From Candidatus Saccharimonadota bacterium (lineage in GTDB: Bacteria > Patescibacteriota > Saccharimonadia > Saccharimonadales > UBA4665), in NCBI GenBank assembly GCA_029288365.1, contig JARIHI010000003.1, positions 62,001 to 126,000 of the forward strand: a stretch of DNA of 64,000 bases, read 5' to 3'. The translations under genes were made by a program, and so were the position numbers. The notes under the pieces are model-generated. The model was given only the letters and a program-made list of their open reading frames with translations, ran no database searches and had not been told where the DNA came from. This document shows positions 40,574 through 60,443 of this stretch, piece by piece. How positions within the stretch are numbered: the stretch's first letter is position 1; each line of letters starts with the position of its first letter.

Positions 40574-40744
40574 ATGAAACTATTTACAGACACCCCTAAA
40601 AACGCTAGAATAACGGGGTTGTATTCTTTTGATTCATCAAAGGAAAAGAGCAATCCAAGTCGGCGAATTTACTTCGCGACCTGGTACGATGAGAAAAACC
40701 TTGGTTTGTCTCATTACGCGTATTCCGGGGTAGCTCAGCGGTAG
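40574..40744 (+). CDS. Short open frame running into tRNA-Asn (possible gene remnant)
   Basis: A 56-codon frame begins at ATG 40574 and stops inside the tRNA D-arm region. The first about 45 residues look protein-like (YSFDSSKEKSNPSRRIYFAT), and the end is simply the tRNA 5' sequence. It may be a truncated gene or chance; no ribosome site is convincing. Confidence 0.25.
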   Translation: MKLFTDTPKNARITGLYSFDSSKEKSNPSRRIYFATWYDEKNLGLSHYAYSGVAQR

Positions 40745-40798
40745 AGCGGGTGGCTGTTAACCACTAGGTCGCTGGTTCGAATCCAGTCCCCGGAGCCA
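40724..40798 (+). tRNA. tRNA-Asn (GUU), insertion target of the island
   Basis: Full cloverleaf: acceptor TCCGGGG/CCCCGGA, D-stem GCTC/GAGC, anticodon loop CTGTTAA (anticodon GTT), T-loop TTCGAAT, discriminator G and encoded CCA. The 3' 42 bases also encode, on the other strand, the last 13 codons and stop of the serine recombinase. Confidence 0.97.
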
Positions 40799-42394
40799 TG
40801 ATAGAGACCCGTGCTGAAAAGCAGGGGTTTTTATCTGTAAATCGTTGGTTCTAACCATTTCTTGAGCATTATTCTGTCGCTCATTCATTTGCTCAAGCGG
40901 AATGAAGTATTTATTAGGGGTGAATTGAATGGTTCGATCTTTGATCGTCAATACTTCACCTAGCTTCACAACCACAGTTCGCTTTTTCTCCAAATCACCG
41001 CTATCAAAGTCTTCCTTTGCATATCTAGCAAACGTGAACACCTCATCCGCCTTTGCACGCCAGTCACGTGCCTTGTACTCGTCCTTATTACGTTGATTTT
41101 GTAGTTCTTCTAACTTATCTTCGAGTGTACTCATTTCTGCATAGAACCATGAGTCATCATCAGCTTCACCGCTATAACGCATTCTCCGCAGATTGTTAAT
41201 AGAGTTCTGAGCTTTCTCAATCAATTTTTCATGTCGGGCACTTTTATCTTGGAATTTCTCTACAACCTCATCTTCTTCTTGTGCAAGTGCTTCGATTGCC
41301 AGCTTGTAAAAATCTGGGTCGATAGTGAATTTATTTAGCTTGTCTTTGATCTGTTCAATTAGTAAATCTTCATTCACATGCTTAGTAGGTTGTGAGCACT
41401 TCATAGTCTTGTTCTTGCCAGTGCAGTGATAGTAGACATATTCCTTTTGCTCACCAGTAGACTTAATTGTTTTACGCTTTTGCTCTGCTGTAATAGCAAA
41501 ACCACACTCACCACATCTGAATAAATTTCTGAGTTGGAAGTTATAGGTCTTGTCTTTGGGGCGAGTTGTATGAGTAGGATCAATTATTTGTTGAACCCGT
41601 TCAAATTCTTCGTCAGTGATCATGGCAGGGTGATTGCCTGGATAGAGCGTTCCTTTGAATGAAATCTTGCCACAATAGAAAGGGTTCTTAAATAAAGCAC
41701 AAATGCTTGAGTAAGCGATAGGACCACCACCAGTTTTTCCACGAACTGGTGTAGTTAAATGTAGCTCTTTGTCTGCAACATGTACTAGCTGTGCCATTGA
41801 GTAAGTACCAGTGAGCATCTTGTCCCACAACAATCGCATAGCATAAAAGCGATCAGGATCAGCAATTATGATCTTCTCAAGTCGGTCATTCAAATAACCT
41901 ACAGGTGGTACACCAGGCTTGTTTCCTTTTTCGACTTTAGATAGCATTCCACGCCTTGTATTACTGCTTAGTTCACGAATGTACTGATTAGACATTCCAG
42001 CTTCTACACTGAACACAATAGCGTTATCTTCGGGGAAGTAGCTTTTTTCAGCAGTTAAAATATGTTTCAGTTTTCCATCTTGCAGCAGTTGCTGTATACG
42101 TCCACTGTCGGTTGGGTTGCGGGATAAGCGATCTAATTTCCAGCAAATGATGCCATCAATTTTACCGTTTTCTATTTCTTGTAATAATTCTGAAAAGACA
42201 GGTCTTGCTTCAGGTCGTTTTGCAGACTTACTTTCTCTAAGCGGTTCACCGAGAATGCGTACATTCTCTCGTTTTGCCGTTGCTTTCATAAATGACACTT
42301 GATCATCTAATAATTGCACTTGCTTGTCTTCGGTATCTGTAGACTTCCTTGCGTAAAGTCGATAACGATACGATTGTAAATTTCTTGAGTTCAT
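40757..42394 (-). CDS. Large serine recombinase (integrase)
   Basis: Site-specific recombinase that probably integrates the island. N-terminal resolvase domain with the catalytic Ser18 in LYARKSTDTEDKQ, conserved Arg in WKLDRLSRNP, then the recombinase domain, a zinc-ribbon (CGECGFAIT with a later HCTGKNKTMKCSQ) and a coiled coil (about residues 370-430). The last 13 residues, WLRGLDSNQRPSG, are the antisense translation of the tRNA, so the gene's 3' end is completed by the attachment site. It follows a 58-residue gene whose stop is next to its ribosome site. Confidence 0.93.
   Translation of the reverse strand: MNSRNLQSYRYRLYARKSTDTEDKQVQLLDDQVSFMKATAKRENVRILGEPLRESKSAKRPEARPVFSELLQEIENGKIDGIICWKLDRLSRNPTDSGRIQQLLQDGKLKHILTAEKSYFPEDNAIVFSVEAGMSNQYIRELSSNTRRGMLSKVEKGNKPGVPPVGYLNDRLEKIIIADPDRFYAMRLLWDKMLTGTYSMAQLVHVADKELHLTTPVRGKTGGGPIAYSSICALFKNPFYCGKISFKGTLYPGNHPAMITDEEFERVQQIIDPTHTTRPKDKTYNFQLRNLFRCGECGFAITAEQKRKTIKSTGEQKEYVYYHCTGKNKTMKCSQPTKHVNEDLLIEQIKDKLNKFTIDPDFYKLAIEALAQEEDEVVEKFQDKSARHEKLIEKAQNSINNLRRMRYSGEADDDSWFYAEMSTLEDKLEELQNQRNKDEYKARDWRAKADEVFTFARYAKEDFDSGDLEKKRTVVVKLGEVLTIKDRTIQFTPNKYFIPLEQMNERQNNAQEMVRTNDLQIKTPAFQHGSLSWLRGLDSNQRPSG
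40807..40833 (+). terminator. Terminator after tRNA-Asn
   Basis: Stem ACCCgTGCT/AGCAgGGGT with a GAAA loop followed by TTTTAT, starting 8 nt after the tRNA end. It lies inside the antisense recombinase coding sequence. Confidence 0.75.
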
Positions 42395-42660: not shown

Positions 42661-42719
42661 ATCTTTATATGTAGGTAGCTTTATATAAAGATACCTGTAT
42701 ATAGAGGTATCTTTATATA
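42661..42719. promoter_or_regulatory. Iteron-like repeats and perfect 15-bp palindrome
   Basis: TATATAAAGATACCT (42682-42696) and AGGTATCTTTATATA (42705-42719) form a perfect 15-bp stem with an 8-nt loop. The motif AGGTA(G/T)CTTTATAT recurs at 42673-42686 and 42705-42718, with a partial copy at 42661-42670. It may be an operator, a replication or excision site, or a terminator of the gene at 42744. Confidence 0.6.
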
Positions 42720-42743
42720 TAAAGGTCATTTAATGTAAAGATA

Positions 42744-43079
42744 CTAGAAAGGAATATCATCTAAGTTGATTGGACCGTCTGGAATATCCTCAATTACGAC
42801 ATCTTGCGTATTTGAATGCTCGATCTGAGCCACTTCAATACACCTTTCTTCGATCTCTTGCCATAGCGGTAGTTTCTTATTAAATTCCACTAAGAACTTA
42901 CCTGGGACTCTGGGCACTCCTGGTGGCACGACACCCCACTTATCGTATTTAGGATTTGGTGGGTAGACCATCATTCCATTGATGTATATTCCCATTTCTT
43001 TGTCCCACACTTTTACACGGTAACCGAACTTTACATTTGAGGGAGTAACCTCAGCATCTATGTTAAATAGCTTAGGCAT
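42744..43079 (-). CDS. Small protein ending in an SSB-type tail (DDIPF)
   Basis: 111 residues from ATG 43079 (GGAGAG upstream). Central part KFGYRVKVWDKEMGIYING could be a small beta domain, followed by a Pro-rich loop (VVPPGVPRVPGKF). The acidic C-terminal tail ends in INLDDIPF, the same tip used by single-stranded-DNA-binding proteins to recruit repair and replication enzymes. It may be a divergent SSB or an SSB-tail mimic. It overlaps the preceding small gene by 8 nt. Confidence 0.7.
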   Translation of the reverse strand: MPKLFNIDAEVTPSNVKFGYRVKVWDKEMGIYINGMMVYPPNPKYDKWGVVPPGVPRVPGKFLVEFNKKLPLWQEIEERCIEVAQIEHSNTQDVVIEDIPDGPINLDDIPF

Positions 43080-44611: not shown

Positions 44612-45865
44612 CTATGCTCGCTTTAGCAGTAGCTCAAAGTATTTTGTGCCACCAAATGGAATCTTTTGTTTGACCTTATGTTTACCCTCAAGTGCATTGG
44701 CAGAGAATAAAATAAAGTTTCCATAACGTTCATTGATTTCATCTATTGCTGTCGTAAGCCACTCTTGTTTATTTACTTCATCGAAGATACTTTGTTGGCT
44801 TCTAGTAGATGGTTCAAGTTTATATAGTGTAATTCCCATAGCTGTGATGATCAGATGTTTTGGACGTTGATTGAATAAGTAGAGTGCTTTGGCATATATG
44901 TCACGATCAGTGAAGAACGGTTGCTTGTGCATCTTACGAACATACCAATGATCACCAGTTTGAAACATAGCCCAGACATACACACCTCGTGCATCTACAT
45001 TGTTATATCTGAGCTTTTTGCCTGTCGTCTCACATAGATATTGAAAGCGAGGAAGTATGACACTGTCATCTGCTGAACGCACATCAAGTACAAATTGTCG
45101 TCCTACATTACCGAGTTTCGTGATTACATTATCGACTTCATAGCCTCTAAGTCGTTGATACCAGTCTTCACCGATCACACTACGAAATACCAGTCGTCTG
45201 AGTGTATCGCTAGAAGCATTTAAGAATTGCATCGGCGAAAATATACCAGCAGCGTTTAACCTAGCTTCAAAGTGACTAGCGATACCCGTCAGATCAGTGA
45301 GTTGTTGCTCAGCATAGTATTTCTTGATGTTGCGAAAATCAATCACGTCCAACCCGTCTGGCTTGTGCCAGCCAGCAGCTTCTTTAGCTAGAAAGCGATT
45401 AGTGCCTATACCAACATTGATACGCATGTGACTGCCTATTTCTTTTCGGACACGCTCTTTTATTTCCATTCCTATTTCTGTCAATGGGCGTTTATGTAAG
45501 TCAGCAGTACCGTGAAAATCAATAACTCCTTCATCGATACTTTTCATCTTCACATCAGGAGAATAATCTTTCATTATTCGACATAATGCCTGGTATACAT
45601 GATGGTATTTAGGAGGGTCGGTTTCTAACATAATAAAATCTGGTATGAACTGCTGCACCTCGTCTAATCTCATTCCCACTTTTACGCCTAAAGCCTTTGC
45701 TTCGTAAGATGCTGCAATTACACAGCAGTGTTTTGATATACGATTTGTAACGCCTATTGGTCTACCCCTAAGACTCTTGTGTGCTTGCTGTTCAGCAGTT
45801 GCATAAGCACTGTTAAGATCAATGTGCATAATTTGTGCTTCTTCTTTGCTAATCTCTAGGTTCAT
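44612..45865 (-). CDS. Y-family DNA polymerase (UmuC/DinB-like)
   Basis: Translesion polymerase of the ImpB/MucB/SamB family, 417 residues. MHIDLNSAYATAEQQ holds the first metal-binding Asp, and MKSIDEGVIDFHG the SxDE catalytic pair; GIGTNRFLAKEAAGW and a helix-hairpin-helix-like LTDLTGIASHFEARLNAAG follow. The start overlaps the 94-residue gene before it by 17 nt. With SRAP and LexA it forms a DNA-damage set within the island. Confidence 0.93.
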   Translation of the reverse strand: MNLEISKEEAQIMHIDLNSAYATAEQQAHKSLRGRPIGVTNRISKHCCVIAASYEAKALGVKVGMRLDEVQQFIPDFIMLETDPPKYHHVYQALCRIMKDYSPDVKMKSIDEGVIDFHGTADLHKRPLTEIGMEIKERVRKEIGSHMRINVGIGTNRFLAKEAAGWHKPDGLDVIDFRNIKKYYAEQQLTDLTGIASHFEARLNAAGIFSPMQFLNASSDTLRRLVFRSVIGEDWYQRLRGYEVDNVITKLGNVGRQFVLDVRSADDSVILPRFQYLCETTGKKLRYNNVDARGVYVWAMFQTGDHWYVRKMHKQPFFTDRDIYAKALYLFNQRPKHLIITAMGITLYKLEPSTRSQQSIFDEVNKQEWLTTAIDEINERYGNFILFSANALEGKHKVKQKIPFGGTKYFELLLKRA

Positions 45866-46133
45866 AATGTCCCTCCAATAACGCCACTAGCGTCCAAGTT
45901 AATCCCTCTGCATCAAATTCCAAACGGTAGTCGTTTGTACCATCACCAACATCAAATACATGTATCATTCGATGCCCCTTACTCGTAGGGTGTCTAAGGC
46001 AGAGTTCTGTGAATATAATTTCTTCGTTTTTGTATTTCATTTTGTACGGAAAACAGAGCGTACTAACATCACCACTCTTGCGATAAAGAGTGACCACATC
46101 AACACGTTCATTTAAGTAATGAGTTGGGTCCAT
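45849..46133 (-). CDS. Small protein co-transcribed with the Y-family polymerase
   Basis: 94 residues from ATG 46133, beta-rich (RVDVVTLYRKSGDVSTLCFP, then RMIHVFDVGDGTNDYRLEF). Small proteins of this type accompany many UmuC/ImuB-like genes in mobile elements. It overlaps the polymerase by 17 nt and diverges from SRAP by 35 bp. No enzymatic motif is visible. Confidence 0.68.
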   Translation of the reverse strand: MDPTHYLNERVDVVTLYRKSGDVSTLCFPYKMKYKNEEIIFTELCLRHPTSKGHRMIHVFDVGDGTNDYRLEFDAEGLTWTLVALLEGHYEPRD

Positions 46134-46168
46134 TAGAGTTTTCCTAGTTTTGGATTTAGAATGAATAT

Positions 46169-46837
46169 ATGTGCGGAAGATACTTGTTAGATGAAGCAGA
46201 CCAAATTGCACCACGTTTTCATGTTGAAGACTGGGATGAAGCGAAGTTGAAACCGAACTATAATGTAGCTCCAACGATGGTAATGCCTGTGATTACGCAG
46301 TCAGATGACGGCAAACCCCAAATCGAAATGATGCAGTGGGGTATCACTAGGTTCTTTGGTAAGGATGCTAAGAAGATGCTTATTAACACAAGGGCGGATA
46401 AAGCATTTGGTGGCTTTTGGAAAAAGACTGTATGCAGCAGACGTTGCCTTATCCCAGCTAACGGATTTTACGAGTGGAAAGGCAGTGCTGGAAACAAAAC
46501 GCCTTACTTCATTCACCCGAAAAATGAGAAGCTGTTCGCTTTCGCAGGTATTTGGGATACATGGAAAAACGATGACGGTCATGAAATTAAGACTTTCTCG
46601 ATAATGACCACTGAACCAAACGCAGAAATGCGGGAGATTCATAATCGAGAGCCTGTGATGTTACACCGAGAAGACGAAACTTCTTGGCTTGAGCCATCGA
46701 ATGATAGTCCAGACGCTCTAGAGCGTTTCTTCTATCCATACGAAGACAACGGTTTAGAAATATATGAGGTTAGTAGGGACGTGAATGTCGTCAAGAACAA
46801 TAACGGTAAGCTATTCCTCCCAATCAACAGTCAGTGA
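46169..46837 (+). CDS. SRAP-family DNA-protein crosslink protein (YedK/HMCES)
   Basis: Protects abasic sites in single-stranded DNA by a covalent crosslink through Cys2. MCGRYLLDEA puts Cys2 right after the initiator Met, which is removed; LKPNYNVAPTMVMPVI, CLIPANGFYEWKG (Asn and Glu), and REPVMLHREDETSWL (His) are the other conserved blocks. 222 residues. The TAGAAT -10 box (46157-46162) lies 6 nt before the ATG, so the mRNA is probably leaderless. Divergent from the polymerase operon, sharing a 35-bp regulatory gap. Confidence 0.95.
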   Translation: MCGRYLLDEADQIAPRFHVEDWDEAKLKPNYNVAPTMVMPVITQSDDGKPQIEMMQWGITRFFGKDAKKMLINTRADKAFGGFWKKTVCSRRCLIPANGFYEWKGSAGNKTPYFIHPKNEKLFAFAGIWDTWKNDDGHEIKTFSIMTTEPNAEMREIHNREPVMLHREDETSWLEPSNDSPDALERFFYPYEDNGLEIYEVSRDVNVVKNNNGKLFLPINSQ

Positions 46838-47551: not shown

Positions 47552-49003
47552 ATGAAAATTAAGCAAAGTCCTCCGTATGCACCTCTACTTATTGAATCAA
47601 TGCGGTCACTTGGCTATTCATTTGATACTGCTATTGCTGATCTCATAGATAATAGCGTTAGTGCTCAGGCTAAGAACATCAACATTTTGCTAGACCCGTC
47701 TGATGATCCGCAACTAATTATATTCGATGATGGTAATGGAATGGATTCAGCATCACTAGAAGAAGCATTGCGGTTCGGTAGTCGAGGTCCATTAGAGTCT
47801 CGTAGCGAATTTGACTTAGGACGATTTGGGTTAGGTTTGAAGTCTGCATCTTTATCTCAATGTAGACGTTTAATCGTAGCAAGTAAGCATGATGGCAAGG
47901 TCTGCTGTTTTTCATGGGACTTAGATGAAGTCGAAAAGACTGGTGACTGGTCTGTACTTGAGTATGCTAATGATGAAATAAGCCAGCTTCCATCTATTGA
48001 CCTATTCGATTCGGTTAATTCTGGTACTTATGTTTTGCTTCAGAATTTTGATCGCATTGCAGCATCATCGCATGACGTAAAAAAGACGTTGGACACGCTA
48101 ATTGAGACTGCTGAAGATCATCTTTCATTAGTATTTCACCGAATTATTAGTGAAGATCGAGTCAGTATTGCAATAAATGGCAGACCTATCGAACCTAAAG
48201 ACCCTTTCTTGGAGAATCACAAGTCTACTCAAAGACTCCGTGAGCAAAGCATCAGTATTGATGACAATAAGATCACTTTACAGCCATACATTCTTCCTCA
48301 TCGAAATAAGCTATCGAGAGATGATTTGAAGAAAGTAGGTGGTTCTGATGACCTACGAACTAATCAAGGCTTTTATATTTACCGTTGTAAGCGATTGATC
48401 ATTTGGGGTACATGGTTCAGGTTGCTGAGTAAAGAAGAGCTTAATAAATTGGCTAGGGTTAAGGTGGATATACCAAATTCACTTGATGAAATTTGGAGCA
48501 TTGACGTAAAGAAAAGCACAGCCAATCTACCAGATAAGATTCGAAAGAATCTGTACGGTAGCATTAAAGAATCTGTGTTTGGAAGTAAGAAAGTTATCGA
48601 GTATAGGGGTAAGTTACACAGAAATGAAGACATTAGCTACATTTGGCAAAGACTGACTGAACGTGATGGTGGAGTTACATATTCAATAAATAGAGACCTC
48701 CCTCAGATTCAGCTTCTGACGAACAGTCTAAACCAGACTGGACAGCGTGTGCTCGAAGCATTACTAAAGAATGTTGAAGAGAATTTTCCATCAAGTAGCC
48801 TATATCTAGATGTAGCAGACGGTGAGATAAGTACAGTCATTAAAGATAGCCAGAAGATATTAGATGAATTTGAAGTTCAGTTAAGTTTTGCAGAGCAACT
48901 TGGGTTATCACGAGATGAATTGATTGGTATGCTCGTTAAGACAGAACCATACGCTAGCAATGAAGAAATTAAGTCTAAGCACAATAATCGACAGGAACAG
49001 TAA
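47552..49003 (+). CDS. GHKL ATPase of a Mza-like defence operon (MutL/MORC-like)
   Basis: GHKL-superfamily ATPase of 483 residues. Bergerat motifs: DTAIADLIDNSVSA (N box), FDDGNGMDS (G1) and LGRFGLGLKSASLSQ (G2). Related MutL/MORC-like ATPases are known to sit with Z1 helicases in restriction-type systems (Iyer, Abhiman and Aravind) and in the Mza set (MutL, Z1, DUF, AIPR). The middle and C-terminal regions have no nuclease motif. First gene of a compact operon; it ends directly at the Z1 gene. Confidence 0.88.
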   Translation: MKIKQSPPYAPLLIESMRSLGYSFDTAIADLIDNSVSAQAKNINILLDPSDDPQLIIFDDGNGMDSASLEEALRFGSRGPLESRSEFDLGRFGLGLKSASLSQCRRLIVASKHDGKVCCFSWDLDEVEKTGDWSVLEYANDEISQLPSIDLFDSVNSGTYVLLQNFDRIAASSHDVKKTLDTLIETAEDHLSLVFHRIISEDRVSIAINGRPIEPKDPFLENHKSTQRLREQSISIDDNKITLQPYILPHRNKLSRDDLKKVGGSDDLRTNQGFYIYRCKRLIIWGTWFRLLSKEELNKLARVKVDIPNSLDEIWSIDVKKSTANLPDKIRKNLYGSIKESVFGSKKVIEYRGKLHRNEDISYIWQRLTERDGGVTYSINRDLPQIQLLTNSLNQTGQRVLEALLKNVEENFPSSSLYLDVADGEISTVIKDSQKILDEFEVQLSFAEQLGLSRDELIGMLVKTEPYASNEEIKSKHNNRQEQ

Positions 49004-51697
49004 ATGACAGAGGACGCAAAAACATTCAAAAGAATCGTACAAGACTTACTCGATAAGCACAGTGCTAAGGATTCAATAAGTGACACTCTTATAGATGATG
49101 AAGTAAATAAGGCATTCTCAGCAATTAGTGTACTGGGACTAACAGTGACTGATGAAGAGAAAACCTCTGTACGAAATGAATTGCTTGCGGACAATAAAAT
49201 TCGGTTAGAGCCAGGTATTGCGATTGTACCTAGAACACATAAGAAATGGTTCGCTGACAAAAAAGCAGAACTAGATTTAGATTATTGGAATCGATTCAAA
49301 GAATTACTGATCAAAGATAAAGGCTTCCCCGTAAATGTTGTAGCTGAAATGGACAATGTTTCTGACGAGATTGTTGATTTAATTGGTGATCCATCAAGAA
49401 CTGAAGAACGTGAGCAAAGGCGTGGGCTGATAATCGGAGATGTCCAGTCAGGGAAGACAGTTAATTATAGTGGCATTATTTGTAAAGCAGTAGATGCCAA
49501 ATTCCGTGCTGTGATTCTAATGACTGGTACGACTAATGATCTCCGCAAGCAAACACAGATTCGTTTAGATGAAGCATTCACTGGCATTGATACTGGCAGC
49601 GAAACACTAAATTTCATTGGTGTAGGTCAGTACAACAAAAAGCTAAGACCAATTTCTTTCACTACAGTTGATAAGGATTTCAGCAAGAGTGCAGCTAAGC
49701 AGTTAAGTAGTGCCTTATCTCAAAGTGACGGTGATCGTCCTATGCTATTTGTGATTAAGAAAAACGTATCAGTTCTAAAAAGTCTTTTAGATTGGATCAA
49801 GACTCACAACCAGTATGGCGAGAACAAGATAGATGGTTCTGTTCTTATGATCGATGATGAGGCAGATTATGCTTCGGTCAATACAAAGGCTGCTGGTGAA
49901 GATCGTAGCAAGACAAATGCGTACATTGAAGAACTACTAAATGTATTTAGATTCGCAAGCTATGTAGGCTTTACAGCGACACCATACGCCAATGTTTTTA
50001 TTGATCCTGAATCTGATGAAGATATGGAGAAAGAGGGTTTGTTCCCTAAGGATTATATTTATACCCTAAATGCACCTACGAATTATATTGGTGCTAGAGA
50101 TATTTTCCCGAATGATGGTAAGTACCATAAAATGCTTCGGACTATTGATGATGGTGAAGATTATTATCCTTTAAGGCATAAGAAAGATGATGATCTTGGA
50201 GAAATTGCTCCAAGTCTTCGAGCTGCTGTTAATACATTTTTAGTAGCGAATGCTATTCGTGATTTACGAGGAGATCAGAATACTCACCGCTCGATGATGA
50301 TCAATGTCACTCGTTTTGTGAATACACAGCAACTTATTCGCAAAGCTGTGAATGAATACGTAGATGACGTAAAGCGTTCCATTAAGAATTACGCTTCATT
50401 ACCTACTGCTAAGGCGTTAAGAGATAAGAATATCAGTTCTCTGCACGAGACATTTAAGCGTGAATATAGCCACAAAGAATTTACTTGGGAACAAGTTCAG
50501 GCGATTCTTTTTGATTCAATTCTACCTATTCAAATCTACGCTGCACATGGTGGTGGAGATGACTTGAATTATGAAGAGTTCAATGACGGTCTACGAACGA
50601 TTGTAGTTGGCGGACAAAGGCTCTCACGAGGCTTAACACTCGAGGGTCTTATAGTCAGTTACTTATACAGAAATTCAATGGCTTACGACACTTTAATGCA
50701 GATGGGGCGTTGGTTTGGTTATCGCAATAACTATGATGATTTATGCAGGTTATGGATGGATGATGTCAGTCAAGATTGGTACGCATTCATTTCAGAAGCT
50801 ACTGATGAATTGCGTGAAGAGGTGAAAAGGCTACGAGACCTGGAAGCCACTCCATTAGACTTCGGTCTGAAAGTTAGAAATGATCCTGATATACCACTCA
50901 TTGTGACAGCAAGAAATAAGATGCGATCTGCACAGTCTAGAACAATCAGTAAATCGCTAAGCGGTAAGGCTGTTGAAACGCCTTTCATTTTCAACAATGC
51001 ACGCAAAAATGACACAAACCTTAAGGCTGTTCTGAGCCTGACTGACTCAATAGAATTTAAGCCATCGGACAATCAATATGCAGCGTATTCAGTACCAAAA
51101 GAACGAGTTCTTTCATTCTTGGGTAAGATCGAAGTGCCAACTGCGAACGCTCAGTTTAATCCAGAATCCATTGCACAGTTCATACAGCAGTATGCAGGTG
51201 CTGAATTAAATGAATGGGACATCGTTATTCTTTCTGGTAAGGCTGAAACGAAATACGATCTTGCACAGAATATATCTGTGACCCCTAACATTCGAAAGTT
51301 CGACTTCCTCAAAGGTGATGGAAGCGTAATTCGAATGAGTGGTTCCAAAAGACGCTTGGGTAGCCAGGGCAATACAAGATTTGGGCTTACGAAAGAGCAG
51401 ATCGATCTAGCTAAAAAATTAGTACACGACAATCCTGAGCGTGGTGCTGTTAATGACGATGACTATTTTGCGATAGACAGGAAACCCTTGTTAATGATTT
51501 ATTTCGTAGAGCCTAGTCAGGAAAGTAATGCAGAGGACTTATCTAAGCTAGATGACTTCAATGGGCAACCGCTAATCGGTTTTGGTTTAGGTATTCCAAA
51601 GTTAGGAAACGTAAGCACGAAATACATTCGTTACCAGACCAATAAGATACATCAGGAGTTTGGTGGCATTGATGAATACGAGGACGAAGATGACTGA
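49004..51697 (+). CDS. Z1-domain helicase/ATPase of the Mza-like operon
   Basis: Superfamily 2-type translocase of 897 residues. Walker A GDVQSGKT at residues 145-152, Walker B VLMIDDEADYASVNT, and helicase motifs V/VI in RLSRGLTLEGLIVSYLY and MQMGRWFGYRNNYDDL. The Z1 architecture fits proteins that move on DNA as part of phage restriction. It follows the GHKL ATPase without gap and overlaps the nuclease-like gene by 8 nt. Confidence 0.92.
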   Translation: MTEDAKTFKRIVQDLLDKHSAKDSISDTLIDDEVNKAFSAISVLGLTVTDEEKTSVRNELLADNKIRLEPGIAIVPRTHKKWFADKKAELDLDYWNRFKELLIKDKGFPVNVVAEMDNVSDEIVDLIGDPSRTEEREQRRGLIIGDVQSGKTVNYSGIICKAVDAKFRAVILMTGTTNDLRKQTQIRLDEAFTGIDTGSETLNFIGVGQYNKKLRPISFTTVDKDFSKSAAKQLSSALSQSDGDRPMLFVIKKNVSVLKSLLDWIKTHNQYGENKIDGSVLMIDDEADYASVNTKAAGEDRSKTNAYIEELLNVFRFASYVGFTATPYANVFIDPESDEDMEKEGLFPKDYIYTLNAPTNYIGARDIFPNDGKYHKMLRTIDDGEDYYPLRHKKDDDLGEIAPSLRAAVNTFLVANAIRDLRGDQNTHRSMMINVTRFVNTQQLIRKAVNEYVDDVKRSIKNYASLPTAKALRDKNISSLHETFKREYSHKEFTWEQVQAILFDSILPIQIYAAHGGGDDLNYEEFNDGLRTIVVGGQRLSRGLTLEGLIVSYLYRNSMAYDTLMQMGRWFGYRNNYDDLCRLWMDDVSQDWYAFISEATDELREEVKRLRDLEATPLDFGLKVRNDPDIPLIVTARNKMRSAQSRTISKSLSGKAVETPFIFNNARKNDTNLKAVLSLTDSIEFKPSDNQYAAYSVPKERVLSFLGKIEVPTANAQFNPESIAQFIQQYAGAELNEWDIVILSGKAETKYDLAQNISVTPNIRKFDFLKGDGSVIRMSGSKRRLGSQGNTRFGLTKEQIDLAKKLVHDNPERGAVNDDDYFAIDRKPLLMIYFVEPSQESNAEDLSKLDDFNGQPLIGFGLGIPKLGNVSTKYIRYQTNKIHQEFGGIDEYEDEDD

Positions 51698-52613
51698 GAT
51701 TACTGAACGCATTCGCAAGCTACTCGAAAATCAAGAGTCAGAATCTTATAGTCGTTATGACGGTGAGCATCCCTTTGATGTATATCTAGGTGTTGATCAG
51801 TCTGGTCGGAAGAGCCTTGCATTAGTAATGAACGCTAGGAGAGAAAGTGTAACTTCGACTAAGACTATTGATGCCCAATTTTACAGGCGTGAGGACGGTC
51901 AGTTGATGCTTTGTTTCTCATTGGTTGATGACCAGCTCAGAGATATTTTCTATAAGTTCTGTGAAGATATAATTGAAAGCTCTCGACTTCATCATAAGGA
52001 AGATGGCTTTGCACCCGTAATCGAACGCTGGGAGACTTGGATCAAATTCTTTTCAAAGACTTCTTTGCCTTTGTCTGAGAATGAAATACTAGGTCTGATA
52101 GGTGAAGTTTACTTCTTGCAAAATGTAATGATACCTAAATTCGGTCAGGACATAGCATTAGATTCCTACATAGGCACTGACCGTGCACATAAAGACTTTG
52201 AAGTACAAGATACTTGGCATGAAGTGAAGTCGATACATAATGGTGTTCGATCTGTGAAAATCAGTTCAATCGAACAATTAGACTCTGAATTAGTTGGCAA
52301 TTTAGATATTCTGACATTCGATCAAAGCACTTCTACTTATGAAAATAACATTACACTCAATAGCATTATCAGCAATTTTAGGGAATCACTTGATCGTAAA
52401 TGGCAGTTAAAATTTGATGAGAAGATGCGTAAAGCTGGTTATATCGAAGATGAGAGATACGATGAATATAATTACCTGTTTGTGAGTTTAGACGAATATC
52501 ATGTATCTGATTCATTTCCTAAATTAAGTAAATCTGATCTGCCAAACGGTATAACCAAAGCCAGCTATGAGATTGATATTTCAGCAATACAAAAATTTAA
52601 GGCAGTAAAATGA
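51690..52613 (+). CDS. PD-(D/E)XK motif protein (DUF4420 type)
   Basis: 307 residues. Nuclease-like core DFEVQDTWHEVKS supplies the Asp and the ExK pair, preceded by EILGLIGEVYFL with the helical Glu. This matches the DUF4420 family found in Z1-containing systems. Start ATG 51690 (overlap 8 nt with the Z1 gene) with GAGGACGAAG as ribosome site. Likely the DNA-cutting subunit. Confidence 0.88.
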   Translation: MTEITERIRKLLENQESESYSRYDGEHPFDVYLGVDQSGRKSLALVMNARRESVTSTKTIDAQFYRREDGQLMLCFSLVDDQLRDIFYKFCEDIIESSRLHHKEDGFAPVIERWETWIKFFSKTSLPLSENEILGLIGEVYFLQNVMIPKFGQDIALDSYIGTDRAHKDFEVQDTWHEVKSIHNGVRSVKISSIEQLDSELVGNLDILTFDQSTSTYENNITLNSIISNFRESLDRKWQLKFDEKMRKAGYIEDERYDEYNYLFVSLDEYHVSDSFPKLSKSDLPNGITKASYEIDISAIQKFKAVK

Positions 52614-54721
52614 ACCTAGAAGACTTTCGTGCAGATTGGGTTGGTGATCTACGAGTTGCAGCAGAAGCTAATCAGAGTGATCCTCACAGCGAATTTGTAA
52701 TAGATGCAGTAGACCAGCTTCAAGAAGCAGAAGAAGTTGAGAATGTCGAACTTGGTTACTTTGAGGGTATAGGACCAAAGGGTAAAAAGCTAATGACAGA
52801 TGGATACGCTTTTGATTCTGTCGATAAGTCGTGCGTTGTACTAATCAGTGATTTCTCGAATAGTGATGAAATGGAGACATTAAATAATACAGACATTGAT
52901 AGACTGTATGATCGTATGAGTAATCTTGTCGAGGCTGCTCTTAGCGGATATATAGTCGATAATAAGTTCGAAGAAAGTAGTATAGGCTATACCTTTGCAG
53001 TAGATGCTAAAAGACTTTTCGATAATGGTGAAATATCTAAATTTAGGTTCTATATACTCACGGATAAAAAGCTGAGTGAGCGAGTCAAGAACATTCAAAA
53101 GAGTCCTATAAATGGTAAAAGGGTTGATCTTAATGCTTGGGACATCAACCGCTTCTACCAGCTTTATACATCCACTCAGGGTAAGGAAGAAATTGAGATA
53201 GATGCGAGTTCAGTTGATGGAGGTGGCATACCTTTTGTAAGTGCCACTCAAGGTGATGATTATTCATCTTATCTAGCTGTAGTACCAGGCAGGTTCTTAG
53301 CTGACATTTATCTTCTTTACGGTTCTAGACTACTCGAAGGAAACGTTCGGTCATTCTTGAGTATTCGTGGAAAAGTGAATAAATCTATCCGAGGAACGAT
53401 ACTGCAAGAACCTGATATGTTCTTTGCGTATAACAACGGTATCGCAGCAACTGCCACAGCCATTGAGACTACTTTTGAAGACGGTAAGCACCTCATCACA
53501 AGAATCAATGACATGCAGATCATAAATGGCGGACAGACTACTGCTTCGATTGCTAATGCGGTTATACAAGATAAGGCAACACTAGATAACATATTTGTTC
53601 CAATGAAGTTGTCTGTAGTGAACCATGACAAGGCAAAGGAAATGATCCCTGTTATTTCTAGAAGTGCCAACAGCCAGAATAAAGTTGATGAAGCGGACTT
53701 CTTCTCAAATCACCCTTATCACGTTCGTATTGAAGAATACTCACGCAGAGTCTTAGCGCCACCAATAGACGGTAATCAGTATCAGACTACATGGTTCTAT
53801 GAGCGTGCACGAGGTCAATATGTTCAAGAGCAAATGAAGCTGACACGTTCAGAGCGAAAGCGTTACCAACTCAAGAATCCTAAAGCACAATTATTACGGA
53901 AAGTAGACGTTGCTAAATTCATAAATTCATACGAGCAAAAGCCACATATTGTTAGTCGTGGTGCTCAATTTAATATGAGAAATTTTGCTGAATCTATTTC
54001 AAAGGATTGGAAACCTTCAGATCAAAATACTAGCTTTAATGAATACTATTTCAAAAAGTTAATAGCACTGGCAATCTTATTCAAATCAACCGAGAAGATA
54101 GTTTCAGCTCAACAGTGGTATCAAGAAATTAAAGCATACCGTGCCAACATAGTGACTTATAGTATTGCAGTAATAATCAATCAAATAGAGAAAAAATATC
54201 CAGGCAAGACTATCGACTTTCTTCGTATCTGGAACACTCAGGAAATTAGTCCAGAGCTTGAAGCTCAGCTCGTGAAGACTACTCGTGAAGTTTTCGATTT
54301 CATCACCCGTGATGACCGTACAACATTGAATGTTACTGAGTGGTGCAAAAAAGAAGATTGCTGGAAGCGTGCCCAAGACTATGACTTTACCTTGTTGGAC
54401 AGTTTTGCTTCAACATTGTTAAAGAATGATGATGAGCAAGAAGAAAAAGAGATTGCTCAAAAAGAACAAAAAGTTACTAATCAAATTAGTGCAGAGATTG
54501 AATTAATAAATCTTGGAGCTGATTATTGGAAAAAGGTATTAGACTTTGGCAGGAATGACAGATTACTGAGTGAAATGGAAGATGGTCTACTAAGCGTAGC
54601 TGCTAATTTTGATACCACTGGAAGAGTTCCATCAGATAAGCAAGCTAAGTTAATTATGCAAATCAGAAGTCGGCTGTATGAAGAAGGTTTATCTCGTAAT
54701 TTAGACAGCAGCGTAAAGTAA
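52610..54721 (+). CDS. AIPR-family protein of the Mza-like operon
   Basis: 703 residues. AIPR domain with the conserved FFAYNNGIAATATAIE and DMQIINGGQTTASIANAV blocks and then ISRSANSQNKVDEADF. AIPR proteins accompany phage-abortive and restriction systems. The start overlaps the nuclease gene by 4 nt (ATGA). The C-terminal 200 residues include a charged linker (DDEQEEKEIAQKEQKV). Confidence 0.92.
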   Translation: MNLEDFRADWVGDLRVAAEANQSDPHSEFVIDAVDQLQEAEEVENVELGYFEGIGPKGKKLMTDGYAFDSVDKSCVVLISDFSNSDEMETLNNTDIDRLYDRMSNLVEAALSGYIVDNKFEESSIGYTFAVDAKRLFDNGEISKFRFYILTDKKLSERVKNIQKSPINGKRVDLNAWDINRFYQLYTSTQGKEEIEIDASSVDGGGIPFVSATQGDDYSSYLAVVPGRFLADIYLLYGSRLLEGNVRSFLSIRGKVNKSIRGTILQEPDMFFAYNNGIAATATAIETTFEDGKHLITRINDMQIINGGQTTASIANAVIQDKATLDNIFVPMKLSVVNHDKAKEMIPVISRSANSQNKVDEADFFSNHPYHVRIEEYSRRVLAPPIDGNQYQTTWFYERARGQYVQEQMKLTRSERKRYQLKNPKAQLLRKVDVAKFINSYEQKPHIVSRGAQFNMRNFAESISKDWKPSDQNTSFNEYYFKKLIALAILFKSTEKIVSAQQWYQEIKAYRANIVTYSIAVIINQIEKKYPGKTIDFLRIWNTQEISPELEAQLVKTTREVFDFITRDDRTTLNVTEWCKKEDCWKRAQDYDFTLLDSFASTLLKNDDEQEEKEIAQKEQKVTNQISAEIELINLGADYWKKVLDFGRNDRLLSEMEDGLLSVAANFDTTGRVPSDKQAKLIMQIRSRLYEEGLSRNLDSSVK

Positions 54722-54747
54722 GTCCTTATGCTATTATTACATCAGTT

Positions 54748-56043
54748 ATGATTAAAGTAATAGAAACATTTAGTGGTATTGGTGCTCAGTCTAAAGCACT
54801 TAAAAACATAGGGTGTGATTTTCAGATCATCGGTACTGCCGACTGGGATATTCATGCCATTATCGCTTATGATCTCATCCATAACGGCAAACAAGACCTT
54901 TCGAAGTATGAAAACGCTACTCGTGAAGAATTACTTAAGAAATTAGAAAATTCTACTCTTAGCATGGACGGAAAGGTTCCAACCGATTGGAAGAATATAA
55001 AGATACTGAATGTTGAAGTTCTACGAAGACTCTGTGCTGCAATTGATAGGACTAACAACTATGTGAGCGTAACTGACATGAATGGTGCACTTTTGCCCGT
55101 TGATATGGACGCTCTCACTTATTCATTCCCATGCCAGGATTTGTCGGTAGCCCATGCTTGGCATGGAAAGACAGACGGTATAGACCGTAGTGCAGCTAAC
55201 CGCTCAAGTCAGTTGTGGGAAATTGAACGAATCCTCAAAGAACGAAAAGCTAGTCCACGACCAATGCCTAAGTTCTTGTTAATGGAAAATGTTCCGAACA
55301 TAATTTCTCGATCACACAGCAAGAATTTCGATGATTGGAAGCAGTCTCTTATAGATTTAGGTTACTACAATCGATTCAATGTTCTTGTATCAAGCAATTT
55401 TGGTACTCCTCAAATTCGCAAACGTGCTTATCTCATGAGTTTTTATACTGGTGGCAATAAGAAGCTCGAAGCAAAGCTAGATAAGTATTTTGCTGCGAAT
55501 AATCTTGAAGATGTTCGCATGAAGCCTTCCGAGCTCTCGAAGTATCTAAGGGTCGACTACGACAAGGAAACTTTTCGACAAGAAGCTAATGAGGCACAGC
55601 CCAATGACACTCCTTCTCGTCGAGACATATTTATCAAAAGCGTTAAATTGTTTGACGGAAGTAATTATTCAAGTTATGTACCGACAATTACCACAAAGCA
55701 AGACCGTAGACCTAATTCTGGTGTGATCGTGTATGATAGCAAGCGTCCAGGTAAAAGTACATTCAGATACCTAACAGCACGTGAAGCATTACTTCTTATG
55801 GGTTTTGAAGATAGTGATTATGAAGCATTAGTTGATGGCAACTTCAAGAAGAACATCACGACCAATTTCTTCACTACAACCAAGATAGTTAAGATGGCGG
55901 GTAACAGTATTGTTGTGCCAGTTTTGGAAGCAGTATTTACTCAGATGCTGTATGTAGATCAACATTTCTTGTCTAAAGTAACAAACGAAGAAACAGAAGA
56001 AGTAACACAATTAGCAGGAGAGCTTAGCCTCGCCACATCCTAA
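54748..56043 (+). CDS. DNA cytosine-5 methyltransferase
   Basis: Modification enzyme of 431 residues. Motif I IETFSGIGAQSKAL, motif IV SFPCQDLSVAHAW with the catalytic Cys, motif VI LLMENVPNI, motif VIII PQIRKRAYLMS, motif X KMAGNSIVVPVLEAVF. The variable region between VIII and X would read the DNA target. A TATTAT box (54732-54737) lies 10 nt upstream of the ATG, so it has its own promoter apart from the four upstream genes. It is the self-protection partner of the restriction genes. Confidence 0.96.
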   Translation: MIKVIETFSGIGAQSKALKNIGCDFQIIGTADWDIHAIIAYDLIHNGKQDLSKYENATREELLKKLENSTLSMDGKVPTDWKNIKILNVEVLRRLCAAIDRTNNYVSVTDMNGALLPVDMDALTYSFPCQDLSVAHAWHGKTDGIDRSAANRSSQLWEIERILKERKASPRPMPKFLLMENVPNIISRSHSKNFDDWKQSLIDLGYYNRFNVLVSSNFGTPQIRKRAYLMSFYTGGNKKLEAKLDKYFAANNLEDVRMKPSELSKYLRVDYDKETFRQEANEAQPNDTPSRRDIFIKSVKLFDGSNYSSYVPTITTKQDRRPNSGVIVYDSKRPGKSTFRYLTAREALLLMGFEDSDYEALVDGNFKKNITTNFFTTTKIVKMAGNSIVVPVLEAVFTQMLYVDQHFLSKVTNEETEEVTQLAGELSLATS

Positions 56044-56060
56044 GGAGCTGAAAAGCATTT

Positions 56061-57260
56061 ATGAGCGTTTATGAATTTGATGACCTGCAGAACGCTCCAC
56101 TCATCATAGATGCAGTTTATAAAAGTAAAAGCACTCTGTTTGGAGATGGTCCGCTTGGTAAATTATTGCCTAAGATAGGTAATCAAGGTGGTTTTAGGAC
56201 TGTTAAAAGACAAGATGGTAGCGGTCAACTTGCGTACATAGTTTTGTACACCTCAGGGACGGAAATAGATTGGCCCGATTCCCTTGATGTAGAAACTGGC
56301 ATATGGCGATATTTTGGTGACAACCGCACACCAGGAAAGTCGTTACATGATACTCCTGCCAAAGGTAATCGTTACTTAAGTGATATTTTTGCCAAGATTG
56401 ATTCACCAACTGAAAGGGCCGATATACCTCCATTTCTAATTTTTCAATGGGCTGGCAATCAATTTGATGCGAAGTTCCTTGGAGTAGCCGTACCAGGCAA
56501 TCCAAATATTCCTCCTGATAAAGAATTGAATGCGATATGGAGATCGAAAAAAGGGAACAGATTCCAGAATTATGAAGCCTATTTCTCTGTACTAGATACA
56601 AGCCGTGAAGAAATATCAAAAGAGTGGCTTAAGCTCTTGATTAGCGACCACAAAAATAGCATTTCGTATGCACCCGCAGCATGGAGACAATTTATTGAAT
56701 TTGGGAGACAGGGAGTAAAACCCCTACTTTCCCCACGAGGCTCTGAAATTCCAAATAAAGAGCAACAATTACCCCACGACGTAGATGGTAAGAAATTATT
56801 ACAGAAGATTCGTGATTACTACAAAGACAATCCTTTTGGCTTTGAATTATGTTCAACGAAGATAGTGCAAATGATGGACAATAATTTTGAACTATTTGAA
56901 CTAACTCGCCCTTGGCGTGACGGTGGTAGAGATGCAATCGGAAGATATAAAATCGGAAGTAGCCACAATCCTTTATTAGTAGAATTTGCACTGGAAGCAA
57001 AATGTTACTCTGCCGATGTATCAGTCGGAGTTAAGTCAATGTCACGACTGATTTCTAGGTTACGGTATCGTCAGTTCGGCATACTTGTCACTACAAGCTA
57101 CGTACATTCACAGGCATATAAAGAAATTATTGAAGACGGGCACCCAATCCTAGTTATTAATGCTTCGGACATTGCAAAAATTCTTAGGGCACAAGGAACT
57201 AATCACCAAAATGTTGATGTCTGGTTAGATCAGATTGAGCAAGATAATATAGCAAATTGA
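56061..57260 (+). CDS. Mrr-like restriction endonuclease
   Basis: 399 residues. Nuclease core near the C-terminus: RPWRDGGRDAIGRYK (catalytic Asp), FALEAKCYSADVSVGV (ExK), and RYRQFGILVTTS, as in Mrr_cat-type restriction enzymes. The N-terminal about 250 residues are probably a DNA-recognition or modification-sensing module (WPDSLDVETGIWRYFGDNRT). It follows the methyltransferase by 17 nt and is likely its cognate nuclease. Confidence 0.85.
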   Translation: MSVYEFDDLQNAPLIIDAVYKSKSTLFGDGPLGKLLPKIGNQGGFRTVKRQDGSGQLAYIVLYTSGTEIDWPDSLDVETGIWRYFGDNRTPGKSLHDTPAKGNRYLSDIFAKIDSPTERADIPPFLIFQWAGNQFDAKFLGVAVPGNPNIPPDKELNAIWRSKKGNRFQNYEAYFSVLDTSREEISKEWLKLLISDHKNSISYAPAAWRQFIEFGRQGVKPLLSPRGSEIPNKEQQLPHDVDGKKLLQKIRDYYKDNPFGFELCSTKIVQMMDNNFELFELTRPWRDGGRDAIGRYKIGSSHNPLLVEFALEAKCYSADVSVGVKSMSRLISRLRYRQFGILVTTSYVHSQAYKEIIEDGHPILVINASDIAKILRAQGTNHQNVDVWLDQIEQDNIAN

Positions 57261-57300
57261 TTAACAGATAAGACTACTAAGTGACTTAGTACGATAATAA

Positions 57301-57397
57301 GGCTAAATCGACCTTAATTGTGGTTATAACTTCCTCTATTGTGGTGAGCCAAAGTTAGAACCAAATTAACAGAGACGAAAGTCTCTGTTTTATTTTT
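57301..57397 (+). ncRNA. Repeated RNA-like element, copy 1
   Basis: GGCT (57301-57304), the 33-nt block 57320-57352 that contains TTATAACTTCCTCTATTGTG and ends GTGAGCCAA, and a terminator AACAGAGAC-GAAA-GTCTCTGTT (57368-57389) with T-tract to 57397. GGCT can close with the AGCC at the block end. It lies after the Mrr-like gene, same orientation. Confidence 0.65.
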
Positions 57398-57442: not shown

Positions 57443-58363
57443 ATGAGTAATAAACAGTGGCAAGAGTACTTTTATACAGAAGTCCAATTAGCTTGTACTG
57501 CAATTGCCATTCGAGATGACGAGGGAACTGAATTTATAGGTTCAGCAGCCTACTTAGCACCAGGTCTATTTATTACTGCAAAGCATGTCGTTGAACACCC
57601 ATTAATCAAAGTAGGCATATCGAAAGAAATATATGAAAATCGAAAGTTTGGTCAGATAGATGGAAACTATGGTACAGATAAATTTAGAATAGAAGCAGTT
57701 CAACTCTTAAAGATAGAAGAGAAAATTGCTCAGCGTTGGCCACTTGAAAAAATGCGATTTTCACATGATTTTGATTTCGCCATTTGTACTACTAGTCTCA
57801 CTGACGGCCCAATTACCGACCTGATAGACAGCTTACCAGTAATTTCAGTAAACATACATCCGATTCCATTCGAGCCAGACATTATATCGTGTGGCTTTTT
57901 TGGAAAATCAACTCATACAAATGATGCAGCCGGCACAGACAACCATGATCTAACATATCAGGGAAGAAAAGGTAAGTTAGTTAATTTTCATTTAGATACT
58001 GCATCGGTTGCGGGATCGGCGGTATATGAGGCAAATAATAAAATTGAACATATGATGAGTGGTGGACCGACCTTTAATCATGAAGGTTCAATATTAGGTG
58101 TTAATAGTGCAGGGTTAGAGCTAGTTGAAAATGGTGTTACGAACAGAACTGTAATTACTCCATTGATTAGGGCTATGTTTATGGATTTCGATTATTGGAT
58201 AGATGGATCATGGGGCAGGACTACTTTATTCGAGCTAGCCTCCAACGGTACTATTGAAGTAATTGGCTATGAACATCTTAGTCAGAATGAAAAACATATA
58301 GTATGGTCTCCTAATGCCACCTGCGATTATTGTAAAAGAGGTACTGAGTTCCATAGCCAATAG
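57443..58363 (+). CDS. Trypsin-like serine protease
   Basis: 306 residues, no signal peptide, so probably cytoplasmic. Catalytic His48 in FITAKHVVEHP, Asp in SHDFDFAICTT, and Ser in HMMSGGPTFNHEG, the last a short form of GNSGGP. A C-terminal extension holds a CDYCKRG pair. Trypsin-like proteases occur in several defence islands as effectors; here it stands alone between two copies of the repeated element. A TATTAT box (57431-57436) lies 6 nt before the ATG. Confidence 0.85.
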   Translation: MSNKQWQEYFYTEVQLACTAIAIRDDEGTEFIGSAAYLAPGLFITAKHVVEHPLIKVGISKEIYENRKFGQIDGNYGTDKFRIEAVQLLKIEEKIAQRWPLEKMRFSHDFDFAICTTSLTDGPITDLIDSLPVISVNIHPIPFEPDIISCGFFGKSTHTNDAAGTDNHDLTYQGRKGKLVNFHLDTASVAGSAVYEANNKIEHMMSGGPTFNHEGSILGVNSAGLELVENGVTNRTVITPLIRAMFMDFDYWIDGSWGRTTLFELASNGTIEVIGYEHLSQNEKHIVWSPNATCDYCKRGTEFHSQ

Positions 58364-58372
58364 TCATTTAAT

Positions 58373-58479
58373 GGCTCAATCTGACATATCCATTTTAATA
58401 GTAGTTATAACTTCCTCTATCGTGGTGAGCCAAGCCAAGAAAGACAAAGTCAGAACTGTAGATATGGTTCTGACTTTTT
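58373..58479 (+). ncRNA. Repeated RNA-like element, copy 2
   Basis: GGCTCA (58373-58378) pairs with TGAGCC of the conserved block 58401-58433; terminator AGTCAGAAC/GTTCTGACT (58448-58475) plus T-tract to 58479. It lies after the protease gene and converges with lexA. Confidence 0.65.
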
Positions 58480-58517: not shown

Positions 58518-59123
58518 CTATACCGATCTGACTAAACCAACGAGTACACCACGGATTTCAAATTCACTTGAGTCAACAATAATCGGGTTCATCGTAGAGT
58601 TTCTTGGCAATAATGTAACTTGTCCGTTTTCATCTATGCCACCGAATTTCTTTAGCGTAGCACCGCCATTCACAATAGCTACTATTGTATCTTTTGGGCT
58701 ACTCATATAGTTTTGAGACTTAATAATAACTGTGTCGCCATTCTCAATGTTATCTTCTATCATTGAATTCCCGCAGACTTTTAGAGCGTAATGACCATGT
58801 GGTGATTTAACTAAATCGGTCGATACAAATATTGGCTCTGGGTCTTCAAGCGGTTCTATTGGCAGGCCGGCCGCGATCTCTCCAAGAAGAGGTATTCTAA
58901 TGAGCTTCGGAATGTTATGTACCCTAGTATTCCTATCTTTTCTGGAGACGCTATCGATGAGGCCTTTACTGCGAAGCGCAACAAGATGTTGATGAACGGT
59001 TGATACAGCACCAAGACCCATATGGTCGGCCATTTCTCTGAGTGAGGGGGCATAACCGTTGTGGGTCGTATACTTCTTTATGTACGAAAGTAATGCTGCT
59101 TGTTTTTCGGTAATATTACTCAT
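58518..59123 (-). CDS. lexA: LexA repressor
   Basis: SOS repressor/autoprotease of 201 residues. N-terminal winged HTH with APSLREMADHMGL and STVHQHLVALRSKG; Ala85-Gly86 cleavage site in GEIAAGLP; Ser120 in CGNSMIEDN and Lys158 in GATLKKF as the catalytic dyad. Spacing matches E. coli LexA. It lies in the island with its own operator candidate, and probably controls island damage-response genes and perhaps excision. Confidence 0.97.
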   Translation of the reverse strand: MSNITEKQAALLSYIKKYTTHNGYAPSLREMADHMGLGAVSTVHQHLVALRSKGLIDSVSRKDRNTRVHNIPKLIRIPLLGEIAAGLPIEPLEDPEPIFVSTDLVKSPHGHYALKVCGNSMIEDNIENGDTVIIKSQNYMSSPKDTIVAIVNGGATLKKFGGIDENGQVTLLPRNSTMNPIIVDSSEFEIRGVLVGLVRSV

Positions 59124-59286: not shown

Positions 59287-59601
59287 ATGACACTCAGAAC
59301 TACTACGCATCTCGGCAATCACTTATTCGCCGGTCCACACACAACTAACGGTACGCTTCCGTCTATATCCGGCGTATACATAATCACAACCCTAGCCCCG
59401 AATCAGCAGCACAGCGTTATAGATGTTGGTGAGTCAGAGAATGTACGTGAGCGTATCTCAAGCCATGACCGCACTAGTCAGTGGCAAGGAGCGCAACAAA
59501 ATGGGCTATACGCTTGGGTGTTGGCAGCAGAGGAAGCCTCTCGTATGTTAATAGAGCGGGCGCACCGCCTGGCTTATAACCCCGTCTGTGGAGTACGTTA
59601 G
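59287..59601 (+). CDS. GIY-YIG-like nuclease domain protein
   Basis: 104 residues. The GIY-YIG fold is suggested by SGVYIITTL (first strand), VIDVGESENVRERISSH (the YIG-equivalent plus catalytic Arg) and MLIERAHRLAYNPVCG (Glu helix). The Tyr/Gly of the second motif is altered (DVG), so activity is uncertain. GAGAGGGAAAT precedes the ATG. It is 2 nt from the TIR gene, so the pair is one operon. Confidence 0.7.
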   Translation: MTLRTTTHLGNHLFAGPHTTNGTLPSISGVYIITTLAPNQQHSVIDVGESENVRERISSHDRTSQWQGAQQNGLYAWVLAAEEASRMLIERAHRLAYNPVCGVR

Positions 59602-59603
59602 CC

Positions 59604-60323: not shown

Positions 60324-60336
60324 ATCATAGAGATAA

Positions 60337-60443
60337 GGCTGAGTCCTGTTTGATTGTAGTTACAACTTCCTCTATCGTGCTGAGCCAAGATCATATATTA
60401 CAGAGAATCCACTAAGCATATAAGCTGGTGGATTCTTATTTTT
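60337..60443 (+). ncRNA. Repeated RNA-like element, copy 3
   Basis: GGCT (60337-60340), conserved block 60356-60388, terminator AGAATCCAC/GTGGATTCT (60404-60436) and T-rich tail. Four positions of the 33-nt block vary among the three copies. It lies after the TIR gene. Confidence 0.65.

Follow-up and report, generated by a model that had tools for sequence, protein, structure and literature searches.

Restriction operons centred on GHKL ATPases of the MORC/paraMORC type were delineated by Iyer et al. in 2008, and bring together an SF2 helicase, an RE-fold protein, an AIPR protein, DCM and Vsr (PMC2292703). A comparable arrangement was reported in 2022 as a putative defence system (Nat Commun; PMC9523054), whose Type II, as characterised in the description of that system, has a core of a ~925 aa Z1 protein, a PD-(D/E)XK DUF protein and a cytosine methylase, together with AIPR and a MORC-like ATPase. 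This Type II Z1/DUF4420/C5-methylase system is stated there to be only ~20% identical to mzaBCDE of the Mza system (MzaABCDE), which is represented by NCBIfam and PADLOC models; by the same account, just a few of the systems described contain mzaA.

Modification-dependent restriction relies on enzymes of another kind. Type IV enzymes have been noted by Loenen and Raleigh to be under selection to spare co-resident methylases (PMC3874153), and in AspBHI of the MspJI family, alanine mutants of D71, Y82 and D85 abolished cleavage (PMC4499157). Both kinds of system meet in a six-gene operon within the window, as the whole 64,000-nucleotide stretch of DNA analysed is called here. The operon is a variant of the known putative restriction system joined to a methyl-dependent nuclease, and its host is unusual.

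A six-gene operon and its closest described relatives

The sequence-only reading had placed a GHKL-Z1-DUF4420-AIPR set, followed by a C5 methyltransferase and a nuclease, at 47552–57260, and these gene calls stand with exact coordinates, in that order and all on the + strand (Table 1). Pfam assigned all six proteins far above its cut-offs, including the Z1, DUF4420, AIPR and C5 methyltransferase profiles on which the reading depended. Successive genes are spaced by 0, −38, −4, +26 and +17 nt, and a gap of 182 nt separates the nuclease gene from the next gene. The proposal of one operon is borne out by the shared strand, the gaps of −38 to +26 nt and the terminator after the last gene. A separate promoter for the methylase, which had also been suggested, found no support, as the gap before that gene is 26 nt and no sigma70-like promoter was seen on the + strand across 52241–55276. 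The DUF4420 gene starts at a TTG, or alternatively at an ATG at 51672. Judged from its sequence, the operon is real and intact, and no part looks decayed.

Table 1. Positions in the window of the operon genes and of the surrounding island and repeat features
Feature	Position	Strand	Support
tRNA-Asn(GTT), apparent integration site, left island end	40724..40798	+	ARAGORN, Rfam
Large serine recombinase (Resolvase N-terminal + Recombinase + Zn ribbon)	40757..42394	-	Pfam
GHKL ATPase (paraMORC/MzaB-like)	47552..49003	+	Pfam HATPase_c_3 5.9e-35; PADLOC MzaB 262 bits
SF2 helicase-like ATPase with Z1 domain (MzaC-like)	49004..51697	+	Pfam Z1 4.2e-72; PADLOC MzaC 399 bits
DUF4420 PD-(D/E)XK nuclease-fold protein (MzaD-like)	51660..52613	+	Pfam 3.5e-55; PADLOC name MzaD
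AIPR_N + AIPR protein (MzaE-like)	52610..54721	+	Pfam AIPR 7e-100, AIPR_N 5e-31; PADLOC MzaE 248 bits
C5-cytosine DNA methyltransferase	54748..56043	+	Pfam DNA_methylase 1.4e-47
MspJI-family (AspBHI-like) nuclease: SRA-like 5mC-recognition + Mrr-type catalytic domain	56061..57260	+	RE_AspBHI_N 1.6e-50, Mrr_cat 7e-11
REP1, cassette-end repeat directly 3' of the nuclease gene, closing the array's first segment on the right	57297..57353	+	
Intrinsic terminator hairpin 3' of the operon, perfect 9-bp	57368..57389	+	
REP2, after trypsin-like protease gene (57443-58363)	58378..58434	+	
REP3, after ThsB-like TIR gene (59604-60323)	60333..60389	+	

The motifs of the core proteins are intact. In the GHKL ATPase these are the N box ADLIDN, DDGNGM and GRFGLGLKSAS, with key residues invariant across 20 homologues; the best fold-search matches of its AlphaFold model (pLDDT 81) are the MORC3/MORC2 ATPases, and a profile search matched MORC2 at E 1.1e-11. 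The Z1 protein has a Walker A (GDVQSGKT), a Walker B (IDDEAD), TATP and QMGRWFGYR, with invariant catalytic residues. The DUF4420 protein carries the E-D-ExK motif of the RE-fold protein, and the residues concerned, E149...D179...E188-x-K190, are invariant in an alignment of 18 homologues. AIPR appears to be an orphan fold, as neither sequence nor fold comparison turned up a solved relative; assigning it a function through its fold was attempted and rejected, because its confident model (pLDDT 85) matched nothing in the PDB at E <0.001.

The match to Mza that had been claimed holds for domain content and for the B-C-D-E gene order, and fails at the level of the families themselves. Scores against the NCBIfam equivalog models were 331 bits against a cut-off of 850 for MzaB, 507 against 1500 for MzaC, 97 against 420 for MzaD and 332 against 1050 for MzaE, so that all four were missed, by factors of 2.6 to 4.3, and the operon is classed as Mza-like, not as Mza sensu stricto. 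No gene for a sigma-factor-like MzaA was seen within it.

A closer fit is found with the Z1/paraMORC/C5-methylase system of Iyer et al. and the "Type II" of PMC9523054, as far as the latter is described, and the operon is a putative anti-phage system. It has the Z1, DUF4420 and cytosine methylase genes by which Type II is recognised, with AIPR and a MORC-like GHKL protein. It differs from that system in adding an MspJI-family nuclease as the last gene, which the description of Type II does not include, and in residing in a reduced, CPR-like genome. With the operons of Iyer et al. it shares the GHKL protein, the distinct SF2 helicase, the E-D-ExK nuclease, AIPR and the cytosine methylase; those operons include Vsr, whereas here the genome is without Vsr and the MspJI-like nuclease is added (PMC2292703).

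The host genome, which is presumably of the CPR type, is 908 kb in size at 97% completeness; genomes of the phylum among the matches listed range from 0.4 to 1.6 Mb. That such an operon is notable in a reduced genome was confirmed: Z1 is rare in the phylum, being found in five of 380 genomes, and the operon nuclease is the sole AspBHI_N protein among the same 380. One phylum member from another family (G354) has a methylase-GHKL-Z1-DUF4420 locus (L105).

A cytosine methylase beside a predicted methylcytosine-dependent nuclease

The methylase retains intact motifs (FSGIGA, SFPCQDLS, MENVP, QIRKR and GNS), and its nearest solved relative is 4dkj (E 1e-44), which we take to be the CG-specific M.MpeI. 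The recognition loops of M.MpeI (F302, S304, E305; G322, A323, N324, S325) are not conserved in the operon methylase, whose loop-2 region reads TTKQDRRPNS against TASGANSR in M.MpeI, and the chromosome has a CpG observed/expected ratio of 1.01, showing no CpG depletion. CG specificity by analogy with M.MpeI was therefore rejected on both grounds.

The methylase had been regarded as an addition to the core set, a view that comparison with relatives reverses. A Z1 profile scan of viral contigs and a nuclease scan of named genomes yielded 19 loci with all four core genes (GHKL, Z1, DUF4420 and AIPR), and since all 19 carry a C5 methylase, this enzyme is the rule in the Z1 system, not an extra. 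The Type II description in PMC9523054 likewise includes one. In several relatives Vsr also adjoins the Z1/methylase system. Vsr is the repair partner of 5mC, and no Vsr mismatch endonuclease was found in the entire genome to which the window belongs, despite its C5 methylase.

The last gene of the operon had been called an Mrr-like nuclease, which is correct for its catalytic domain and too general for the protein as a whole. This is an MspJI-family, AspBHI-like enzyme that is predicted to be 5mC-dependent. Its closest PDB entry is 4oc8, AspBHI, at 325 bits over the full length and with 44% identity, and it has the two-domain layout of the family (AspBHI, LpnPI, MspJI). The catalytic residues D291, E312 and K314 (Mrr-type D...E-x-K) are kept, as are the equivalents of the AspBHI pocket at W71, D73, Y84, F85, G86, D87 and R89, with S in place of N63 and F in place of Y83; the kept pocket and catalytic residues are those required in AspBHI and LpnPI (compared with PMC4499157). 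The loop residues that set sequence context differ from AspBHI, so the AspBHI site cannot be transferred to the operon nuclease.

Relatives of the nuclease were sought in 84,980 species genomes, which gave 42, and with one viral contig made up 43 loci. A C5 methylase lies ≤10 kb from the nuclease in 28 of these 43, a count that leaves out locus L024, where the methylase match was rejected because the greater part of the matched protein is unlike a methylase. The methylases beside AspBHI-like nucleases belong to several subfamilies (SPECT type, AGCAPCQPFS type and PCQDLS type), and the pairing therefore appears to have arisen more than once. In L009, L011, L013, L015–L017, L034 and L046, motif IV of the methylase is SPECT (or SPECS) in place of PC, and the gene is immediately beside the AspBHI-like nuclease. 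The idea that these methylases are catalytically dead, for want of a PC dipeptide, was dropped, because SPECT contains the cysteine of motif IV.

The settings of the pair vary. The sequence-only reading had suggested a variant joining Mza with modification-dependent restriction; such a nuclease is indeed joined, the core is only Mza-like, and the combination is not confined to this genome, with the full Z1 set and the nuclease also occurring together in Rhizobium (L008), Myxococcus (L012), Hyphomicrobiaceae (L016) and a viral contig (L092). The Hyphomicrobiaceae locus comprises the full Z1 set, a methylase and Vsr, and its nuclease shares 94% identity with AspBHI, an enzyme characterised biochemically, so that, to judge by this homology, an enzyme type that depends on methylation does occur at the same locus as a C5 methylase. 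Such sharing would require non-overlapping specificities or some form of regulation. In Nocardia (L045) the nuclease is found with GHKL-Z1; in L014, L019 and L042 with a methylase, Vsr and a MORC-like GHKL protein; and in L029 with a MutH-like type II pair. A Halomonadaceae locus (L035, 2557–17832) has an AspBHI-like gene inside a class-1 DISARM operon, in the order DrmD-DrmMI-AspBHI-like-DrmA-DrmB-DrmC, and likewise unites a C5 methylase and an AspBHI-like nuclease in a multi-gene defence operon, with a core (DrmD, DrmMI, DrmA, DrmB and DrmC) different from that of the operon described here. Gene sizes similar to those of this DISARM locus were also observed in L018, together with a GHKL gene.

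The tRNA-Asn island and its apparent repeat-ended cassettes

The operon is the cargo of a low-GC serine-recombinase island at tRNA-Asn. The C-terminus of the serine recombinase is encoded across the 3' half of the tRNA gene, GC content falls from ~0.45 in the flank to 0.39 over roughly 41–58 kb, and dinucleotide values are shifted relative to the flank (GG 0.79 vs 1.00; GC 1.13 vs 1.36). In the Rfam search, tRNA alone reached a significant score. Three relatives (G005, G007 and G014) likewise have large serine recombinases immediately 3' of tRNA-Asn, and as these recombinases are divergent, at 23–24% identity, the 3' end of tRNA-Asn is a shared hotspot for such enzymes. Upstream of the serine recombinase, at 42666–42744, are four near-tandem TATATANAGGTANC-like units with a spacing of 16–18 bp, possibly operator sites. 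The island also carries a Y-family polymerase and a SRAP gene, and SOS-type genes (Y-family polymerase, SRAP and LexA) lie around the operon at 44612–46837 and 58518–59123.

The most surprising feature of the neighbourhood is an apparent tRNA-Asn cassette array, marked by a conserved repeat, named REP here, of about 45–56 nt with the core GTTATNACTTCCTCTATYGTKGTGAGCCA, which is present in three copies in the genome and at which the island ends. Across the order, 78 copies were found in 50 of 393 genomes, against 0 for a reversed control pattern; the loci studied were the window, L063, L064, L066–L069 and L119–L152. A same-strand tRNA-Asn lies upstream in 20 of 42 arrays (≤10 kb; 16.5 kb in the window), a count that is an underestimate as array flanks of ~10 kb or less were fetched, and 20 of the 22 tRNAs seen at arrays are tRNA-Asn. 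A same-strand stop codon precedes REP in 53 of 65 copies, mostly at ≤75 nt, and the genes concerned are diverse, including DUF1697, LD-carboxypeptidase, Shedu SduA, TIR and MFS. Just 3' of REP the sequences fall into a few shared families, with terminator hairpins. The sequence after REP2 was initially taken for native chromosome 3' of the tRNA-Asn, an interpretation that was revised when it proved common to 11 copies, and it is now seen as a cassette 5'-end family. The 3' end of tRNA-Asn, GGAGCCA, resembles the end of the REP site.

Within the window, the trypsin-like protease gene between REP1 and REP2 has a weak match to the protease domains of RT-Protease defence proteins, and at 59287–60323 the ThsB-like TIR protein (PADLOC 2.5e-107) is preceded by a 104-aa protein that is weakly like PDC-S14.

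Taken together, the repeats may mark an undescribed Patescibacteria-like cassette platform with the operon as cargo at its head, a proposal that stands at about even odds. Cassettes would end in REP, mostly with a 5' terminator hairpin of their own, and all would face the same way, following one another head to tail on the 3' side of tRNA-Asn. The platform would be integron-like, with cassettes that end in a site and the tRNA end as the entry site, but it differs from an integron in that its sites are unstructured double-stranded DNA and its arrays contain no integron integrase. Identification of REP with integron attC was rejected: there is no hairpin, five copies folding no better than shuffles, and there is no adjacent tyrosine recombinase. 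No recombinase of the phage-integrase type was found at the REP array in any of eight array genomes searched, and in six of these eight the sole such recombinase is on another contig; the genome of the window has a single Xer-type recombinase. A tie between REP and the serine recombinases was also discarded, since the latter are present in genomes with and without REP and two REP genomes have none. REP was not found in viral contigs. A search of the available literature retrieved no paper describing the array, which is not proof of novelty, and the array is possibly new.

A proposed pair of weapons in one operon

The favoured interpretation, with a probability of roughly 0.6, is that the operon encodes a multi-subunit restriction-modification system which was acquired by horizontal transfer, has a second weapon built into it and is carried as cargo of the tRNA-Asn serine-recombinase island. 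The C5 methyltransferase would mark the cell's own DNA. The paraMORC-type GHKL ATPase, the helicase-like Z1 ATPase, DUF4420 and AIPR would form an ATP-driven complex that engages and destroys DNA lacking the mark. The MspJI-family nuclease would cut incoming 5-methyl- or 5-hydroxymethylcytosine DNA in contexts other than those methylated by the operon's own enzyme, and would in this way also catch phages whose DNA was modified elsewhere. Survival of the cell would demand that the specificities of methylase and nuclease do not overlap, and the entire operon would travel with the island.

A distinctly less likely interpretation, still worth weighing, is that two independent modules share one address: a complete methylase-protected Z1/paraMORC system and, acquired in a separate event, a solitary MspJI-like nuclease of type IV, the two tolerating each other with no functional coupling. 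Among 16 unbiased complete Z1 loci (from viral contigs) the nuclease is present in one and missing from 15, which makes it a rare accessory of the Z1 system that may be an independent neighbour. Elsewhere its strand varies, as does the side of the core on which it is found, and it occurs with no methylase in sight in L005, L010, L021, L026, L027, L032, L037 and L041; at the locus of its closest relative (L004, 54%), the available flank contains neither a methylase nor Z1. The operon, moreover, reads as a mosaic, as its six genes have differing nearest relatives. Against independence, the nuclease gene begins 17 nt past the methylase gene and before one shared terminator, and its family recurs next to several kinds of methylase.

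The repeated pairing of a C5 methylase with a 5mC-reading nuclease across lineages, and the membership of AIPR in a family annotated for abortive infection, would also suit a guard that kills cell or phage when methylation fails, through over-methylation or a phage acquiring the host mark, as an abortive or addiction module; solitary nuclease loci exist, however, and across the Z1 system the coupling is not maintained, which leaves this improbable. Least credible of all is a nuclease that has lost 5mC dependence and now works as an ordinary restriction enzyme, with the partner methylase blocking its cleavage. Although the adjacency of the two genes recalls type II systems, and the MspJI gene was at first misread in this way as it too adjoins a cytosine methylase (PMC3874153), the 5mC-pocket residues are intact and the L016 nuclease, 94% identical to AspBHI, sits in the same neighbourhood.

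It is a paradox that a C5 methylase shares an operon with a nuclease predicted to depend on 5mC: either the specificities are tuned apart or one enzyme controls the other. Since such pairs are also known from otherwise unrelated defence systems, namely Z1/paraMORC, DISARM and Vsr/MORC clusters, and a close homologue of AspBHI lies in such a locus, there are now concrete cases in which specificity avoidance in modification-dependent restriction can be examined. The setting of the island, with its shared tRNA-Asn hotspot and apparent cassette array, suggests a route by which the tiny genomes of epibionts acquire defence genes; if true, the array would give one of the largest bacterial radiations a gene-capture platform of a new kind.
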